A stretch of 31,196 nt of DNA, taken from the IMG/VR virus record IMGVR_UViG_3300032607_000271, positions 1 to 31,196 of that record; one strand, given 5' to 3'. The notes beneath the pieces are model-generated. The model was not told the DNA's origin and ran no database searches. It was given only the letters and a program-made list of their open reading frames with translations. Numbering within the stretch: the stretch's first letter is position 1; each line of letters begins with the position of its first letter. This DNA is from a virus. A program made the position numbers and the translations under genes. This document shows, piece after piece, positions 3,750 through 31,196 of this stretch.

Positions 3750-4148
3750 ATGAAACAGATAAATATGTTCGGAAACGAATTTCAAGAAGATGAAAACGAT
3801 AAAAAATACTCATCTAAAATAGAGGCTCCAATTTATGAGCCTAAGAATAAAAAGCCACACGTTTTGGAGTTGTATAATATGGCAAAGACAAATAGATTGA
3901 TACGTGAAATTATTCATTCAGAAGTAGAAGATTGCGAAAAAAGGTTCTTAATAGAAGCTGCTAAAAGACATACTGTTTTTAATTACGAAAACATAGCGGA
4001 TTATTATTCTCATTCTTCTAAAGAGATGCAAGAACTAATGGAGAAGTCAGCTTTAGTAATAATAGACTTTGAGAAAGCAATACAGTTAGGTTACGTTGTT
4101 TTATCTGAAGAAATAAAGTCACAATACTTAGAAGAATATGGAGAATAA
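3750..4148 (+). CDS. Conserved partner of the glycosyltransferase, 132 aa
   Basis: After a disordered acidic N-terminus (NMFGNEFQEDENDKK) comes KIEAPIYEPKNKKPHVLELY (23-42), then a helical domain ending NIADYYSHSSKEMQELMEKS and ALVIIDFEKAIQLGYVVLSE. I recall this arrangement from phage proteins encoded next to DNA-modification enzymes and ParB-like genes; the biochemical role is not known to me. It overlaps the glycosyltransferase by 11 bases, so the two products are likely made together. It could be a specificity or scaffolding factor of the modification system; that is inference. Confidence 0.7.
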   Translation: MKQINMFGNEFQEDENDKKYSSKIEAPIYEPKNKKPHVLELYNMAKTNRLIREIIHSEVEDCEKRFLIEAAKRHTVFNYENIADYYSHSSKEMQELMEKSALVIIDFEKAIQLGYVVLSEEIKSQYLEEYGE

Positions 4149-5022
4149 AGACTTCGCTGTTTTTATATTAACTAACGGCAGACCGAACAACATTAAAACT
4201 TTAAAATCATTAAAGACAAGTGGTTACACAGGTAAGATATACTTTATAGTAGATAACGAAGATAAAACAATACAAGAGCATATAGATAAGTTTGGATTAG
4301 AATTCGTTAAAGTATTCGACAAGAAGCATTGGGCTGATAAGATAGATGAGTGCGATAATTTTGACGAAAGAAGAACTACAACTCATGCAAGAAATGCATC
4401 TTTTAGTATAGCAGAAGAGATAGGCATTAAATACTTTATTCAGTTAGATGATGATTATACAGGATTTAGATATAGATGGGTTGATAATAAATACATAACA
4501 GATTTAACTAAGATAATACCTAAGAGCGGTAAAGTTAAAAACTTAGATAGATTCTTTGATATTCATTTAAACTTTTATAAGAAAACTAACTGTAAGAGTA
4601 TTGCTTTTGCTCAAGGTGGAGACTTTATTGGCGGAGAAGGTTGTGGATTAATAAGTAACTACAGAAGAAATTCAAGAAAGTGTATGAATTCTTTTATTTG
4701 TTCTACAGATAGACCTTTTGAATTTATAGGTTCTATGAACGAAGATGTTAACGCTTATGTTATCTTAGGAAGTAGAGGAGATTTATTCTTAACTTTACCT
4801 TACATAGGATTAGAACAGGCTCCAACTCAAGTTGCTTCTGGAGGAATTACGGACAAATACAAGAAGTACGGAACATACTGTAAGTCTTTTATGACTGTAA
4901 TGATACATCCAAGTTCAGTAAGAGTTGCAATGATGGGAAGTACAGTTAATAGATTACATCATAGAGTAAAATGGATTAGTACAACTCCGATGATAATAAA
5001 CGATAAACATAAAAAACAATAA
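4138..5022 (+). CDS. GT-A glycosyltransferase, TET-associated type (DNA modification candidate)
   Basis: The protein of 294 residues opens with a nucleotide-sugar-binding strand-loop, FAVFILTNGRP (6-16), continues with SGYTGKIYFIVDNEDKT (28-44), the conserved TTHARNASF (81-89), and the metal-binding DxD in IQLDDDY (D104-D106). Further conserved blocks are KSIAFAQGGDFIGGE, FICSTDRPFEF and NEDVNAY. This order matches the TAGT family described by Iyer and colleagues in phages with oxidised or otherwise modified bases. By family it would transfer a sugar to a hydroxylated base in phage DNA and so block restriction. No TET/JBP dioxygenase, DNA methyltransferase or hydroxymethylase is recognisable in the genome, so the acceptor is unclear. 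Confidence 0.85.
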   Translation: MENKDFAVFILTNGRPNNIKTLKSLKTSGYTGKIYFIVDNEDKTIQEHIDKFGLEFVKVFDKKHWADKIDECDNFDERRTTTHARNASFSIAEEIGIKYFIQLDDDYTGFRYRWVDNKYITDLTKIIPKSGKVKNLDRFFDIHLNFYKKTNCKSIAFAQGGDFIGGEGCGLISNYRRNSRKCMNSFICSTDRPFEFIGSMNEDVNAYVILGSRGDLFLTLPYIGLEQAPTQVASGGITDKYKKYGTYCKSFMTVMIHPSSVRVAMMGSTVNRLHHRVKWISTTPMIINDKHKKQ

Positions 5023-5023
5023 T

Positions 5024-5482
5024 ATGCAAACAAGAAAACAATTTAACAGCAAGTATCATAATAATGAATTCAATTATCTAATAAGCGAATTGACAGACAT
5101 TAAACGTTCGATAATAGATATTGATTGCGTAATATCTAAATTTAATTATAATACGTTTATGATAGACCATAAGAAGAATACAGATGAAACTTCTTTAAAC
5201 ACTTTAATGAATCTATCTAACTACGTAGACGTAGAATTAAATAATAAATCAAAGATACAATGCTTTATAGTTCGGTCGAATGTAAATACAGAAGTATGCG
5301 AGACACAAGATGGAATAACAATGATATATGAAATTAAGAACATAAACAACGTAGTTGATAAGAAGAACAAGACGGACTTTATAAAGGGAATATACAAAGC
5401 AACAAACGATAGTCAATTAAAACTATTCTTTCAACAAGAGACACATAACGAAATAAAAGAAAAACTAAGATTTGAATTTTAA
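5024..5482 (+). CDS. PD-(D/E)XK-like nuclease candidate, 152 aa
   Basis: The segment SIIDIDCVISKFNYNTFMID (29-48) followed by HKKN gives the spacing D34-x13-D48-H49-K50, compatible with the PD-(D/E)XK fold in which a beta-hairpin carries D and (D/E)xK. Later strands (KIQCFIVRSN, ITMIYEIKNI) fit the rest of such a fold. Small phage proteins of this kind include Holliday junction resolvases and recombination nucleases. The gene follows the glycosyltransferase by one base. The assignment rests on a single motif, so the alternative of a non-enzymatic protein remains open. Confidence 0.5.
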   Translation: MQTRKQFNSKYHNNEFNYLISELTDIKRSIIDIDCVISKFNYNTFMIDHKKNTDETSLNTLMNLSNYVDVELNNKSKIQCFIVRSNVNTEVCETQDGITMIYEIKNINNVVDKKNKTDFIKGIYKATNDSQLKLFFQQETHNEIKEKLRFEF

Positions 5483-5492
5483 AACAAAAAAA

Positions 5493-6032
5493 ATGGAAAT
5501 AACACAAAGATTAAAAGAAATAATATTAACAGAAACAAACGTTAATATTGAAGCAGTAACAAGAGCAAGAAATACGATAGAATTAAGAGCATTGTATTAC
5601 TACTTAATTAAAAAACTATACCCAAAAACAACCTTTATGGAAATAGCTGAATCAGTAGGTAAGAATCACGCTACAGTAATACACGCAATAAATAACTATA
5701 AAGTATATGAATCTTATAATAATGATTTAAAGCTATTAAAAGAAACAATTTTAAAAGAAATGGAAAAAGAATATATACACAAAACAAATGATAATAATAT
5801 ACTAAAAGAAACTATAAATAAAAAGAATAATCAAATAAATGATTTAAAACAAGAATTAGAAATAGTTAAAGAAAAATTAACTACATTTACAAAATCAGAA
5901 TACAATATTATAAATAAGCTAAATGAGCTTTTAATAAATATTAAAGATACAGAACTACACGATGTAATGATAATTAGATTGCAGGCTATGTACGATATGA
6001 ATATAAGAGTTTTAGAACACAATAAAAAATAA
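5493..6032 (+). CDS. DnaA domain IV-like protein with coiled coil
   Basis: The frame can be read from a TTG at 5472, but the ATG at 5493 after an A-rich leader is preferred (179 aa). Residues 20-72 resemble the C-terminal DNA-binding domain of DnaA: ARNTIELRALYYYLIKKLYP then FMEIAESVGKNHATVIHAIN, which matches the DnaA signature around GRDHTTV. There is no AAA+ ATPase. Residues 95-150 form a likely coiled coil (NKKNNQINDLKQELEIVKEK), so it probably dimerises. It may bind DnaA boxes to steer host replication to the phage, or displace DnaA from the host origin. Both roles are inference. Confidence 0.75.
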   Translation: MEITQRLKEIILTETNVNIEAVTRARNTIELRALYYYLIKKLYPKTTFMEIAESVGKNHATVIHAINNYKVYESYNNDLKLLKETILKEMEKEYIHKTNDNNILKETINKKNNQINDLKQELEIVKEKLTTFTKSEYNIINKLNELLINIKDTELHDVMIIRLQAMYDMNIRVLEHNKK

Positions 6033-6183: not shown

Positions 6184-6272
6184 AATATATTATAATTTTG
6201 TTTTTGTATGAAATATTACGAAAAAATTTAATTGACTTTTATTATTATTTAATTGAAAAAATGCAGAAATGA
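6180..6272 (+). CDS. Small hydrophobic peptide, 30 aa
   Basis: Overlaps the previous gene as ATGA (start 6180) and the next one as ATGA (start 6269), so it fits exactly between two coupled genes. The sequence MKYIIILFLYEILRKN begins with a short hydrophobic helix, then LIDFYYYLIEKMQK. It may associate with the membrane. Evidence is the double ATGA coupling; function unknown. Confidence 0.45.
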   Translation: MKYIIILFLYEILRKNLIDFYYYLIEKMQK

Positions 6273-6670
6273 AACAATGGTATAACGAAGAGCAAACAGA
6301 TAAAAGAATGAATGTTATCGGTCAGAATGGGAATGATGGAGAACATTACAAAAAAGAAAACAATATGAAAAATTACAAAGAATTAGAAGCGGTTATTGAA
6401 TTATGGGCAGAAGAAAAAGGTATATTGTCAAAAGCTACTCCCATTAAACAAGCTATGAAAACACAAGAAGAATGTTTAGAACTTTGCAATGCTATACTAA
6501 ACAACGATACACACGAAATAAAGGATGCTATAGGCGATATAATAGTAACTTTAATAATTCAAGCAAAGATGCAAGAGATGACAATAGAAGAATGTTTAAA
6601 TGCTGCATACGATGTAATAAGCAAAAGAACAGGTAAAATGATTAATGGACAATTCGTTAAGGACAAATAA
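6269..6670 (+). CDS. MazG-type nucleoside triphosphate pyrophosphohydrolase
   Basis: The full metal-binding signature of the all-alpha NTP pyrophosphohydrolases is present: E67-E68-x-x-E71 in TQEECLEL and E83-x-x-D86 in HEIKDAIGD, separated by 11 residues. The C-terminus MINGQFVKDK is also typical for phage MazG-like proteins. The family hydrolyses (d)NTPs to NMP and pyrophosphate; in phages this may clean the nucleotide pool or lower alarmone levels. The first 32 residues (YNEEQTDKRMNVIGQNGNDG at 5-24) are unlike the rest and may be a fused small module; an alternative ATG at 6365 would remove them. It is the last gene before the terminase unit. Confidence 0.85.
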   Translation: MKQWYNEEQTDKRMNVIGQNGNDGEHYKKENNMKNYKELEAVIELWAEEKGILSKATPIKQAMKTQEECLELCNAILNNDTHEIKDAIGDIIVTLIIQAKMQEMTIEECLNAAYDVISKRTGKMINGQFVKDK

Positions 6671-6719: not shown

Positions 6720-6977
6720 ATGGAAGATAAAAGAAAATATAATGGAGGTCATACTACTGCTGGTAGAAAATCAAAATCAGAAGAAATTAAACTGATTGAA
6801 AAACTATCAGCATTAGAACCTTTAGCATTTGAAGCGTTAGAAAAAGGATTGGAGAATGGAGACTTTAAGTTTACGCAATTATTCTATAACTATTATGCAG
6901 GAAAGCCACGTGAAACAAAAGACATAACAGTAAAAAATGAGCAACCTATATTTAATATTGATTTAGAAGACATTTAA
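6720..6977 (+). CDS. terS: Small terminase subunit-like protein, 85 aa
   Basis: It lies directly before the large terminase gene (11 bases). The sequence starts with a basic disordered segment (RKYNGGHTTAGRKSKSEE), then two helices (IKLIEKLSALEPLAFEALEK, FKFTQLFYNYYAGKP) and an acidic tail ending NIDLEDI. The AGRK...AGKPRE pattern is shared with short terminase small subunits of Bacteroidetes phages as I recall them. By role it recognises the packaging site and loads the motor subunit. It is shorter than classic TerS (about 140-180 aa), so it may lack part of the oligomerisation core. Confidence 0.7.
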   Translation: MEDKRKYNGGHTTAGRKSKSEEIKLIEKLSALEPLAFEALEKGLENGDFKFTQLFYNYYAGKPRETKDITVKNEQPIFNIDLEDI

Positions 6978-6988
6978 AGAACGATAAT

Positions 6989-8155
6989 ATGGAGTTCATA
7001 GTTACTACTGCAATTAAAAAGTTATTACGTTTAAAGAATCGTATTAAAGTAATTAGAGGTGGAACATCAGCTGGTAAAACATTTGGTATCCTGCCTTTAC
7101 TTATTGATAAAGCAATAAAAGAACCAATGCTAGAAATTAGTATTGTTTCAGAATCTATTCCGCATTTAAGACGTGGAGCATTAAAAGATTTTTTAAAAAT
7201 AATAATGGCACTTGGTAGGTATAAAGATGAAAACTTTAATAAATCAACTTTAAAATATACGTTTGCAAACGGAAGTTATATTGAATTCTTTTCTGTTGAC
7301 CAACCTGACAAATTAAGAGGAGCAAGAAGAACTATTTTATACGTTAATGAGTGTAACAATATAGACTTTGAATCTTATTATCAAATGGCTATTAGAACAA
7401 GTGGAGATATATGGTTAGATTATAATCCAACTTCTAATTTTTGGGTAGATAAAGAAATATTAACACAAGAAAATGTTGATTTTATTACATTGACTTACTT
7501 AGATAACGAAGCATTATCTGACACGATAATAAAAGAAATAGAATCAGCTAAAGTAAAAGCATTAACTTCGACTTATTGGGCAAATTGGTGGCAAGTATAT
7601 GGACTTGGGCAAACAGGTTCTTTAGAAGGTGTATGTATTACTGATTGGAATGAAATAGATTTACCTTTAGAAGCAAGAATACTATGTTATGGAATGGACT
7701 TTGGATATTCAAATGACCCTACTTCATTAGTTGCAATGTATAAGTATAACGATGCATATATATTTGATGAATTGATATATAAAAAAGGTTTATTGAATAA
7801 CGATATATCAAACTTATTAAAAGCAAATGAAGTAAAAGATATAGTTTACGCAGATAGTGCTGAACCAAAATCAATAGCTGAATTAAGGCAATACGGACAC
7901 AATATACTACCTGTTTCAAAAGGTAAAGATTCAATATTATATGGCATTAATTTACTAAATCAAAATAAAGTTTATATTACTTCAAGAAGTAAAAACTTAA
8001 TAAACGAATTAAGGAACTATATTTGGATGGTAGACAAAACAGGAGTTAAAATGAATAAGCCTATTGATTCATATAATCACGCAATAGATGCAATGCGATA
8101 CGCTATAATGAGTCAATTAGAAGACCCTAATAAAGGAAACTATTTTATATATTAA
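6989..8155 (+). CDS. terL: Terminase large subunit (packaging ATPase and nuclease)
   Basis: Residues 22-31 form the Walker A motif (IRGGTSAGKT), residues 116-121 the Walker B strand with catalytic Glu (ILYVNE), and DYNPTSNFW (144-152) the coupling motif seen in PBSX/SPP1-type terminases. The C-terminal nuclease domain shows the three expected acidic residues: D237 in GMDFGYSNDP, D289 in YADSAEP and D367 in HAIDAMRY. Length of 388 residues is normal for this branch. It pumps DNA into the procapsid and cuts it into headful or unit lengths. Cotranscribed with the small subunit. Confidence 0.95.
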   Translation: MEFIVTTAIKKLLRLKNRIKVIRGGTSAGKTFGILPLLIDKAIKEPMLEISIVSESIPHLRRGALKDFLKIIMALGRYKDENFNKSTLKYTFANGSYIEFFSVDQPDKLRGARRTILYVNECNNIDFESYYQMAIRTSGDIWLDYNPTSNFWVDKEILTQENVDFITLTYLDNEALSDTIIKEIESAKVKALTSTYWANWWQVYGLGQTGSLEGVCITDWNEIDLPLEARILCYGMDFGYSNDPTSLVAMYKYNDAYIFDELIYKKGLLNNDISNLLKANEVKDIVYADSAEPKSIAELRQYGHNILPVSKGKDSILYGINLLNQNKVYITSRSKNLINELRNYIWMVDKTGVKMNKPIDSYNHAIDAMRYAIMSQLEDPNKGNYFIY

Positions 8156-16292: not shown

Positions 16293-16883
16293 ATGCGAAT
16301 AGTTGAACTAATAATTGACGAAAAAGAAGACTTAAACGGAATAGAAGCAGTTTCAATAGTTGAATTTCCAGCAATAGAATCTAATTTTGTAGCATTAAGC
16401 GAACAGTTAGAACTTGCAAAAGTTGATGAAGAAAAAAGAATTTTAATGGGTGCAGCATTAATTCCAAATAAAAATATTTATCGCAGAAATGGTAAAGATG
16501 AATATTATATTTTCTTTTCAGATGATACAGTAAGAAAGGCAAGTGAACTTTTTTTAATGAATAGTAATCAAAATAATGCTACATTAGAACACGACAAGAA
16601 ACTAAAGGATTTATCTGTTGTTGAAAGTTGGATTGTTGAAGATTCAGAAATGGATAAGTCTAAAAAATATGGTTTAAATGCACCTGTTGGAACTTGGGTA
16701 GTTTCTATGAAAGTAAATAATGACGAAATTTGGAATGACTTTGTAAAAACAGGTAAAGTAAAAGGATTTAGCATTGAAGGATATTTTGCTGATAAATTAG
16801 AAATGAGTTTGCAAGTTGAGCAAGAAAATGAACTAATAGAAAAAATAAAATCAATAATTAAAAATGCTGAAATTAATAAATAA
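16293..16883 (+). CDS. XkdF-like prohead protease candidate, 196 aa
   Basis: The sequence fits the XkdF family of PBSX-type phages: GAALIPNKNIYRR (53-65), YYIFFSDDTVRKASELFL (71-88), TLEHDKKLKDLSVVESW (97-113), LNAPVGTWVVSMKV and KGFSIEGYF (157-165). H100 in the EHD motif and S160 in GFSIEG are candidates for a Ser/His catalytic pair as proposed for phage prohead proteases. It begins the head module and is followed by scaffold and capsid genes, the expected neighbours. Proteolytic activity has not been shown for most family members. Confidence 0.8.
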   Translation: MRIVELIIDEKEDLNGIEAVSIVEFPAIESNFVALSEQLELAKVDEEKRILMGAALIPNKNIYRRNGKDEYYIFFSDDTVRKASELFLMNSNQNNATLEHDKKLKDLSVVESWIVEDSEMDKSKKYGLNAPVGTWVVSMKVNNDEIWNDFVKTGKVKGFSIEGYFADKLEMSLQVEQENELIEKIKSIIKNAEINK

Positions 16884-30639: not shown

Positions 30640-31182
30640 ATGAGCGATTATAAATGGCTTGAAAAGGTTGCAAATCATCACAAAGAATGGGTGGAAATAA
30701 TTCATAAATTTGGTGAATATGATTATGCGGAAGACATTGTTCAAGAGTCTTATATCGCTCTTATAAAATATGCTGATGCTGCTAAACTTATTGACTTAAA
30801 TGGAAACGTTAGAAAAGGATATATGTTCTTTACTTTAAAGTCTTTGTTTTTTCAGTTTTATAATAAAAAAATGAAAGTAACAAAAGTCTCAATAGATGGT
30901 TGTTGGGAATTATTTGATGATTCAAATGTTGAAGAACATAATGCCTATAATGACATTTGTATGTTGATAGATTCTGAACTTGAAAATTGGCACTGGTATG
31001 ATAGAAAATTATTTAAACTGTATCGTGATTCTGATATGTCAATGCGTGACATTGCAAAAGAAACAAACATAAGTTTAATATCAATATTTCATTCAATTAA
31101 AAATTACAAAGAAGTTTTAAAAAATAAATTTCAAAAAGATTATACTGATTATATAGAAAACGATTATAATAACATTTATTAA
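30640..31182 (+). CDS. Sigma-70/ECF-like transcription factor, 180 aa
   Basis: Residues 20-75 resemble sigma region 2 (EYDYAEDIVQESYIALIKYA with the AEDIVQExY helix, then GYMFFTLKSLFFQFYNKK). Residues 118-160 form a region 4-like helix-turn-helix (WYDRKLFKLYRDSDMSMRDI, AKETNISLISIFHSIKN). The linker between is acidic, as in ECF sigma factors. By family it would direct host RNA polymerase to specific promoters. It lies at the end of the early operon, at the right time to switch on the TAnnTTTA-type promoters of the structural genes. The stop at 31182 equals 127 at the left end; on the circle the gene runs into the small genes from 140. An alternative is a small terminase-like HTH role. Confidence 0.75.
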   Translation: MSDYKWLEKVANHHKEWVEIIHKFGEYDYAEDIVQESYIALIKYADAAKLIDLNGNVRKGYMFFTLKSLFFQFYNKKMKVTKVSIDGCWELFDDSNVEEHNAYNDICMLIDSELENWHWYDRKLFKLYRDSDMSMRDIAKETNISLISIFHSIKNYKEVLKNKFQKDYTDYIENDYNNIY

Positions 31183-31196
31183 AAACAAAAAAAAAT
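31056..31196. repeat. Right copy of exact 141-bp terminal repeat
   Basis: Identical to 1-141, including the nine-A run before the last T. It contains the last 127 bases of the sigma-like gene and the start of the gene at 140. Taken with the left copy it closes the map. Confidence 0.95.

Follow-up and report, generated by a model that had tools for sequence, protein, structure and literature searches.

The window analysed here is the whole 31,196-nucleotide stretch of IMG/VR virus record IMGVR_UViG_3300032607_000271 (positions 1 to 31,196). It contains a gene for a TAGT-family glycosyltransferase, preceded by a small gene for the freestanding C-terminal domain of a ParB-like protein; we use "CTD" for the conserved part of this partner that is common to freestanding and fused forms. 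The features discussed below are, in window coordinates:

1-141, no strand: direct terminal repeat, identical to 31056-31196
3750-4148, plus strand: freestanding CTD of a ParB-like protein, 132 aa, predicted all-helical, pI 5.1
3807-3857, plus strand: extended CTD motif Y-[S/T]-x-K-x-x-x-P-x-Y-E-P...K-P, aa 20-36, with Y20, P27 and Y29 invariant
4138-4148, plus strand: 11-nt overlap of the partner's stop and the TAGT start
4138-5022, plus strand: TAGT glycosyltransferase (PF20691), 294 aa, GT-A fold, pI 9.2
4447-4455, plus strand: D104-D105-D106 of TAGT, DxD-type nucleotide-sugar/metal motif, conserved in relatives
4738-4752, plus strand: N201-E-D-V-N205 of TAGT, invariant or nearly so, candidate catalytic acid region
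6720-8155, plus strand: terminase landmark outside the module, with the inferred small-terminase position at 6720-6977 and the large subunit (Terminase_3, Terminase_3C) at 6989-8155

As the original prediction had proposed, 4138-5022 encodes a genuine, full-length TAGT glycosyltransferase. Its product matches the PF20691 TAGT profile over positions 1-204 of 205 (E 1.6e-29; 103.8 bits, against a cutoff of 27.5), and matches phrog_842, annotated as "beta-glucosyl-HMC-alpha-glucosyltransferase", at 1e-59. The catalytic-type motifs D104-D105-D106, N201-E-D-V-N205 and H274-H275 are intact, and each is invariant or more than 90% conserved among 32 relatives. Comparison with the closest relative (L002) gives a dN of 0.069 and a dS of 1.44, i.e. 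a dN/dS of ~0.05. The AlphaFold model (pLDDT 78.4) has a GT-A fold, with Foldseek matches to GT-A/GT2-like enzymes; no solved structure matches the TAGT by sequence, and a PADLOC search for defence genes returned neither the TAGT nor the CTD. TAGTs are rare, with five genomes above the cutoff in a survey of ~800 genomes from two phyla. "TET-associated" is simply the name of the Pfam family.

The 141-bp direct terminal repeat identifies the window (GC content 27.7%) as a complete genome, such that genes missing from it are truly absent. Pfam scans of the 53 window proteins found no dioxygenase, no DNA methyltransferase and no second glycosyltransferase family besides TAGT. Searches of the whole window record for PF00303 (the thymidylate-synthase type, or dCMP hydroxymethylase, fold), PF01555 (N6/N4 methylases) and PF00145 (C5 methylases) were likewise empty, with positive controls in each case. 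PF12851 (Tet_JBP) matched none of 34 records that included the window, and since no control genome was positive in that search, the absence of TET/JBP from the window rests on the Pfam scans. Hence, the window lacks the dioxygenase that is encoded with the TAGT in TET/JBP-TAGT systems, and it lacks both the dCMP hydroxymethylase and the other, acceptor-making DNA glucosyltransferase of the T-even glucosyl-hydroxymethylcytosine pathway. The suspicion of an undescribed modification route was fair: a TAGT is present in a complete genome that encodes no recognisable base-hydroxylating enzyme. We considered and rejected one candidate DNA methyltransferase, 16293-16883, which matches PHROG 1530 at 16293-16880; the matched part is probably an XkdF-type head protease (Peptidase_S78_2). 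Two further genes near the locus have recognisable domains. The product of 6269-6670 is a MazG-like nucleotide pyrophosphohydrolase that could trim the nucleotide pool; its gene is not conserved beside TAGT in other phages. The product of 5472-6032 has a DnaA C-terminal helix-turn-helix domain and a long tail, and is possibly a DNA-binding protein with a replication or regulatory role.

The same arrangement recurs far beyond this genome. After dropping TAGTs that are at least 85% identical to one another, we retained 119 non-redundant loci from bacterial phages and prophages and one archaeal virus. The CTD lies beside the TAGT in 118 of these; the two genes overlap or nearly touch in 112 loci, are separated by inserted genes or occur in another order in six, and the CTD is missing from one. 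With TAGT as bait, 89 of 91 loci had a CTD, and when open reading frames at contig ends were allowed, Lactobacillus phage Ld17 was the only one without it. A search of viral contigs and bacterial genomes with the CTD recovered 106 further loci, all of which had a TAGT. Clustering of the neighbourhoods of the 119 loci revealed no other near-universal family; the next most frequent was the terminase large subunit, with 49 loci in its largest cluster. Hosts and sources of the pair include Bacteroidota, Lachnospiraceae and other Clostridia, Verrucomicrobia, Spirochaetes, Alpha- and Gammaproteobacteria, Lactobacillus, Nocardia, Vibrio and the archaeal virus HHTV-2. Thus, TAGT and CTD without TET constitute a widespread module, not a gap in one genome. 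The original prediction had been right about the TAGT and the missing handle enzyme, but had overlooked both the obligate partner and the TET-free module.

The two genes nearest the TAGT had been put forward as possible sources of the hydroxylated base. For 3750-4148, the association with the system is borne out, but there is no sign of a hydroxylase: we found no dioxygenase or thymidylate-synthase-like match, and the predicted structure is all-helical, so we reject a hidden hydroxylase in this gene. The downstream gene, 5024-5482, is found in only four of the 119 loci and is therefore not needed by the pair; its sole match is a weak one to a PADLOC homing endonuclease (E 0.0023). A broader version of this idea is that the host, or a phage gene that escaped recognition, makes 5-hydroxymethyl or 5-hydroxy pyrimidines that the TAGT then glycosylates. 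The TAGT routes known so far do act on hydroxymethyl-pyrimidines or on glucosides of these (PMC13216743, PMC13390438), and many small window genes are unannotated. Nonetheless, we consider this explanation improbable: the CTD, whose model is helical and without an enzyme match, is the sole near-universal neighbour of TAGT; a thymidylate-synthase-type (PF00303) gene occurs in only one of the 34 records, that of Vibrio pv27; and the presence of the same pair in E. coli, Lactobacillus, Bacteroides and Haloarcula makes a single shared hidden handle unlikely.

What, then, is the partner? The product of 3750-4148 matches the C-terminal part (aa 121-214 of 217) of phrog_620, "ParB-like partition protein", with an E-value of 3.5e-7. 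Its 11-nt overlap with the TAGT gene is repeated in most relatives, which suggests that the two genes are translationally coupled. The AlphaFold model (pLDDT 81.6, pTM 0.57) starts with an extended N-terminal segment and becomes helical from residue 45 onwards. It has no match among PDB structures (best Foldseek E 1.8; best VIA Z 3.1), and a missing match is not proof of a new fold; no solved structure matches the CTD significantly by sequence. Two loci have a damaged CTD gene beside an intact TAGT: in L027 the frame is broken into a 77-aa N-terminal and a 40-aa C-terminal part, and L033, near a contig start, has only a 40-aa C-terminal part. Both cases may reflect sequencing error, a contig end or real decay.

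In 43 of the 118 non-redundant loci with a CTD, and in 27 of the 35 loci from bacterial genomes, the CTD is part of a longer protein of at least 200 aa, and most of the longer partners that were tested have a ParB_N domain N-terminal to the CTD. Such domains are fused to phage DNA methyltransferases and bind ATP, CTP or GTP (PMC12704722), and ParBc proteins often co-occur with the CmoX cytosine modification genes of phages (PMC12783734). In E. coli YnaK, the ParB_N half hits the ParB_N portion of a Type II DNA methyltransferase model at 1e-38, as well as 498 phage records. Many of these records are labelled DNA methyltransferases, and the alignments to them mostly cover only the first ~137 aa. 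By contrast with many relatives that have long partners, the window encodes no ParB_N domain in any of its six frames (best E 0.26; positive controls 3e-40, 2e-24 and 6e-8). In eight of the long IMG/VR relatives with a freestanding CTD, a ParB_N gene is found away from the TAGT, usually 2.5-5 kb downstream. In a quick TAGT tree, which has many weak forks and forces at least three changes, the window falls inside a 51-row group with the CTD alone, while fused forms are spread over deeper branches. In the window's clade, then, ParB_N has apparently been lost or become detached; the constant core throughout is CTD with TAGT. Two TAGTs outside the CTD clade (L218 and L219) overlap a ParB-like gene and precede the terminase; for L219 the ParB match was obtained with a profile built for this analysis, at 6e-8.

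Across 95 CTD sequences, Y20, P27, Y29, L67, R73, F77, Y86, Q94, E98 and D106 are invariant. The simplest reading of this pattern and of the model is that the CTD binds TAGT as a partner, docking on the enzyme through its extended segment. Position 21, which lies next to Y20 in the low-confidence extended segment, is T in 50 sequences, S in 45 and nothing else. A hydroxyl-bearing residue that is freely swapped yet never lost could alternatively be a glycosylation site. This raises the possibility that the TAGT glycosylates Ser or Thr (or Tyr) of a protein, most simply position 21 of its own CTD, or else a protein of the capsid or of packaging, as has been reported for GREB1. GREB1 is a eukaryotic protein described as an O-GlcNAc transferase that acts on an estrogen receptor (PMC10446492, PMC10908778), and one E. 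coli TAGT has the PGAP label "GREB1-related"; moreover, the absence of a base-handle enzyme is expected if DNA is not the substrate. On the other hand, the partner often has a ParB_N domain of the kind common to DNA methyltransferases, the TAGT is strongly basic, the characterised phage member of PF20691, from T6, works on DNA, and a conserved hydroxyl side chain could equally be a structural contact. We regard a protein acceptor as unlikely, but as the strongest competitor among the alternatives to DNA.

The position of the pair in phage genomes is also conserved. A ParB-like gene, the TAGT and the terminase follow one another in HHTV-2 (with the terminase ~3 kb on), Lactobacillus phages c5 and phi jlb1, a Porphyromonas phage, Salmonella SPF_0923, Nocardia NTR1 and E. 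coli Rac-type prophages. In the Rac-type prophages (L181, L197 and L198) the pair consists of YnaK and a TAGT with the PGAP annotation "hypothetical" or "GREB1-related"; it lies just before the terminase, and one such prophage has the pair with no handle gene annotated. Of 5426 complete E. coli genomes, 885 match at least 80% of the YnaK-TAGT pair DNA, with some copies broken. In K-12-type strains, such as C600, the pair is reduced to its first ~254 nt, before ydaY.

Some pairs are accompanied by sugar or modification genes. Directly downstream of the module we found a UDP-galactopyranose mutase (L163), an NDP-sugar epimerase/dehydratase (L170), a cytidylyltransferase (L173) and, in five loci (L168, L179, L185, L190 and L194), a radical SAM enzyme; these eight loci are from gut Firmicutes, Bilophila and Bacteroidaceae prophages. 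Related class I SAM methyltransferases (Methyltransf_23-like) are encoded between CTD and TAGT in L022 (9117-10001) and L160 (5883-6719), and a Methyltransf_23-like class I SAM methyltransferase is encoded just upstream of the CTD in L161 (140-967). There are extra glycosyltransferases in L119, and tandem TAGTs in L163, L166, L168 and L190. These accessory genes suggest that the sugar donor varies among loci, and that the sugar, which may be an unusual one, may be elaborated further. The extra glycosyltransferase, sugar-nucleotide and radical SAM genes, together with a GT-A/GT2-like fold that is common to polysaccharide transferases, would also be consistent with a target unrelated to DNA protection, such as a host surface molecule modified in lysogenic conversion or superinfection exclusion. 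Such a role is very unlikely given the location before the terminase and the ParB_N partner; furthermore, by eye, TAGT and CTD sequences have no obvious membrane segment.

The ParB_N domain, the proximity of the terminase and the charge of the two proteins (TAGTs are strongly basic, with a median pI of 9.0, and CTDs are acidic, at 5.2) favour DNA as the probable substrate. We propose, with roughly even confidence, that the CTD and TAGT form a complex for handle-free glycosylation of viral DNA, targeted by ParB_N in many phages. In this model, the basic, GT-A-fold TAGT would take a sugar from a host nucleotide sugar, and the acidic, helical CTD protein would bind the TAGT as an obligatory partner. 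The ParB_N domain on the CTD, as found in most bacterial prophages, would load the complex onto newly replicated phage DNA, such that the sugar would be placed on viral DNA around the time of packaging, where it might shield the DNA from host nucleases. Across lineages, the pair comes without an enzyme for a hydroxymethyl, hydroxy or methyl handle, so a group on an ordinary base is the most likely acceptor. The fullest form of this proposal is a more tentative suggestion: TAGT together with CTD/ParB would put the sugar directly on an unmodified base, by a route shared by phages and prophages of many bacterial phyla, by one archaeal virus or more, and by a considerable minority of E. coli genomes. 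O-linked transfer normally requires a hydroxyl, whereas canonical bases offer only amino, keto and ring-nitrogen groups, which argues against a handle-free reaction. The window's own clade also argues against the DNA reading, since it has no ParB_N, and DNA targeting there must come from elsewhere.

The closest characterised enzyme is the beta-glucosyl-HMC-alpha-glucosyltransferase (BGAGT) of phage T6, which adds a second glucose to glucosyl-hmC (PMC13216743, PMC13390438). Like the window TAGT, it is a phage enzyme that uses a sugar nucleotide and matches PF20691 (35.8 bits), and a GT-A fold has been reported for it (PMC13216743), although its single sequence could not be aligned to the window profile by hhalign. 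It differs in its acceptor, a glucosylated hmC that is made by a dCMP hydroxymethylase, encoded next door, and an alpha-GT, and no CTD or ParB gene is annotated beside it. More similar in gene content are the solitary TAGTs reported in 288 of 753 phage genomes, which lack alpha-GT and beta-GT and whose function was stated to be undefined (PMC13216743, May 2026). As in the window, these are TAGTs without another known DNA glucosyltransferase; that study does not mention ParB, and the partner and module are identified here. The ParB_N-DNA methyltransferase fusions of phages share the ParB_N type, but their effector is a methyltransferase rather than a CTD and glycosyltransferase pair (PMC12704722). 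CmoX carboxymethylcytosine hypermodification resembles the module in that its phage genes for DNA modification are often found together with ParBc proteins, but it installs a carboxymethyl handle, and TAGT is not mentioned in its description (PMC12783734). The link to the GREB1 glycosyltransferase domain is the PGAP label of an E. coli TAGT. We also considered the glycosyltransferases of mycobacteriophage cluster O, and set them aside, as this analysis did not tie them to TAGT. The novelty therefore lies in the setting of a known enzyme family, which here belongs to a distinct module that has a new partner and lacks the known handle enzymes; parts of the neighbourhood may have been noted earlier.

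Solitary TAGTs that are related to that of the window thereby gain a defined partner and a conserved genomic position, and the YnaK-TAGT pair of E. coli Rac-type prophages offers a tractable model for them. Should the partner or a packaging protein prove to be the substrate, protein glycosylation of the GREB1 kind would be extended to phages. Should the substrate be DNA, the module would represent glycosylation without a hydroxymethyl handle, and hence new base chemistry, probably serving as an anti-restriction layer.
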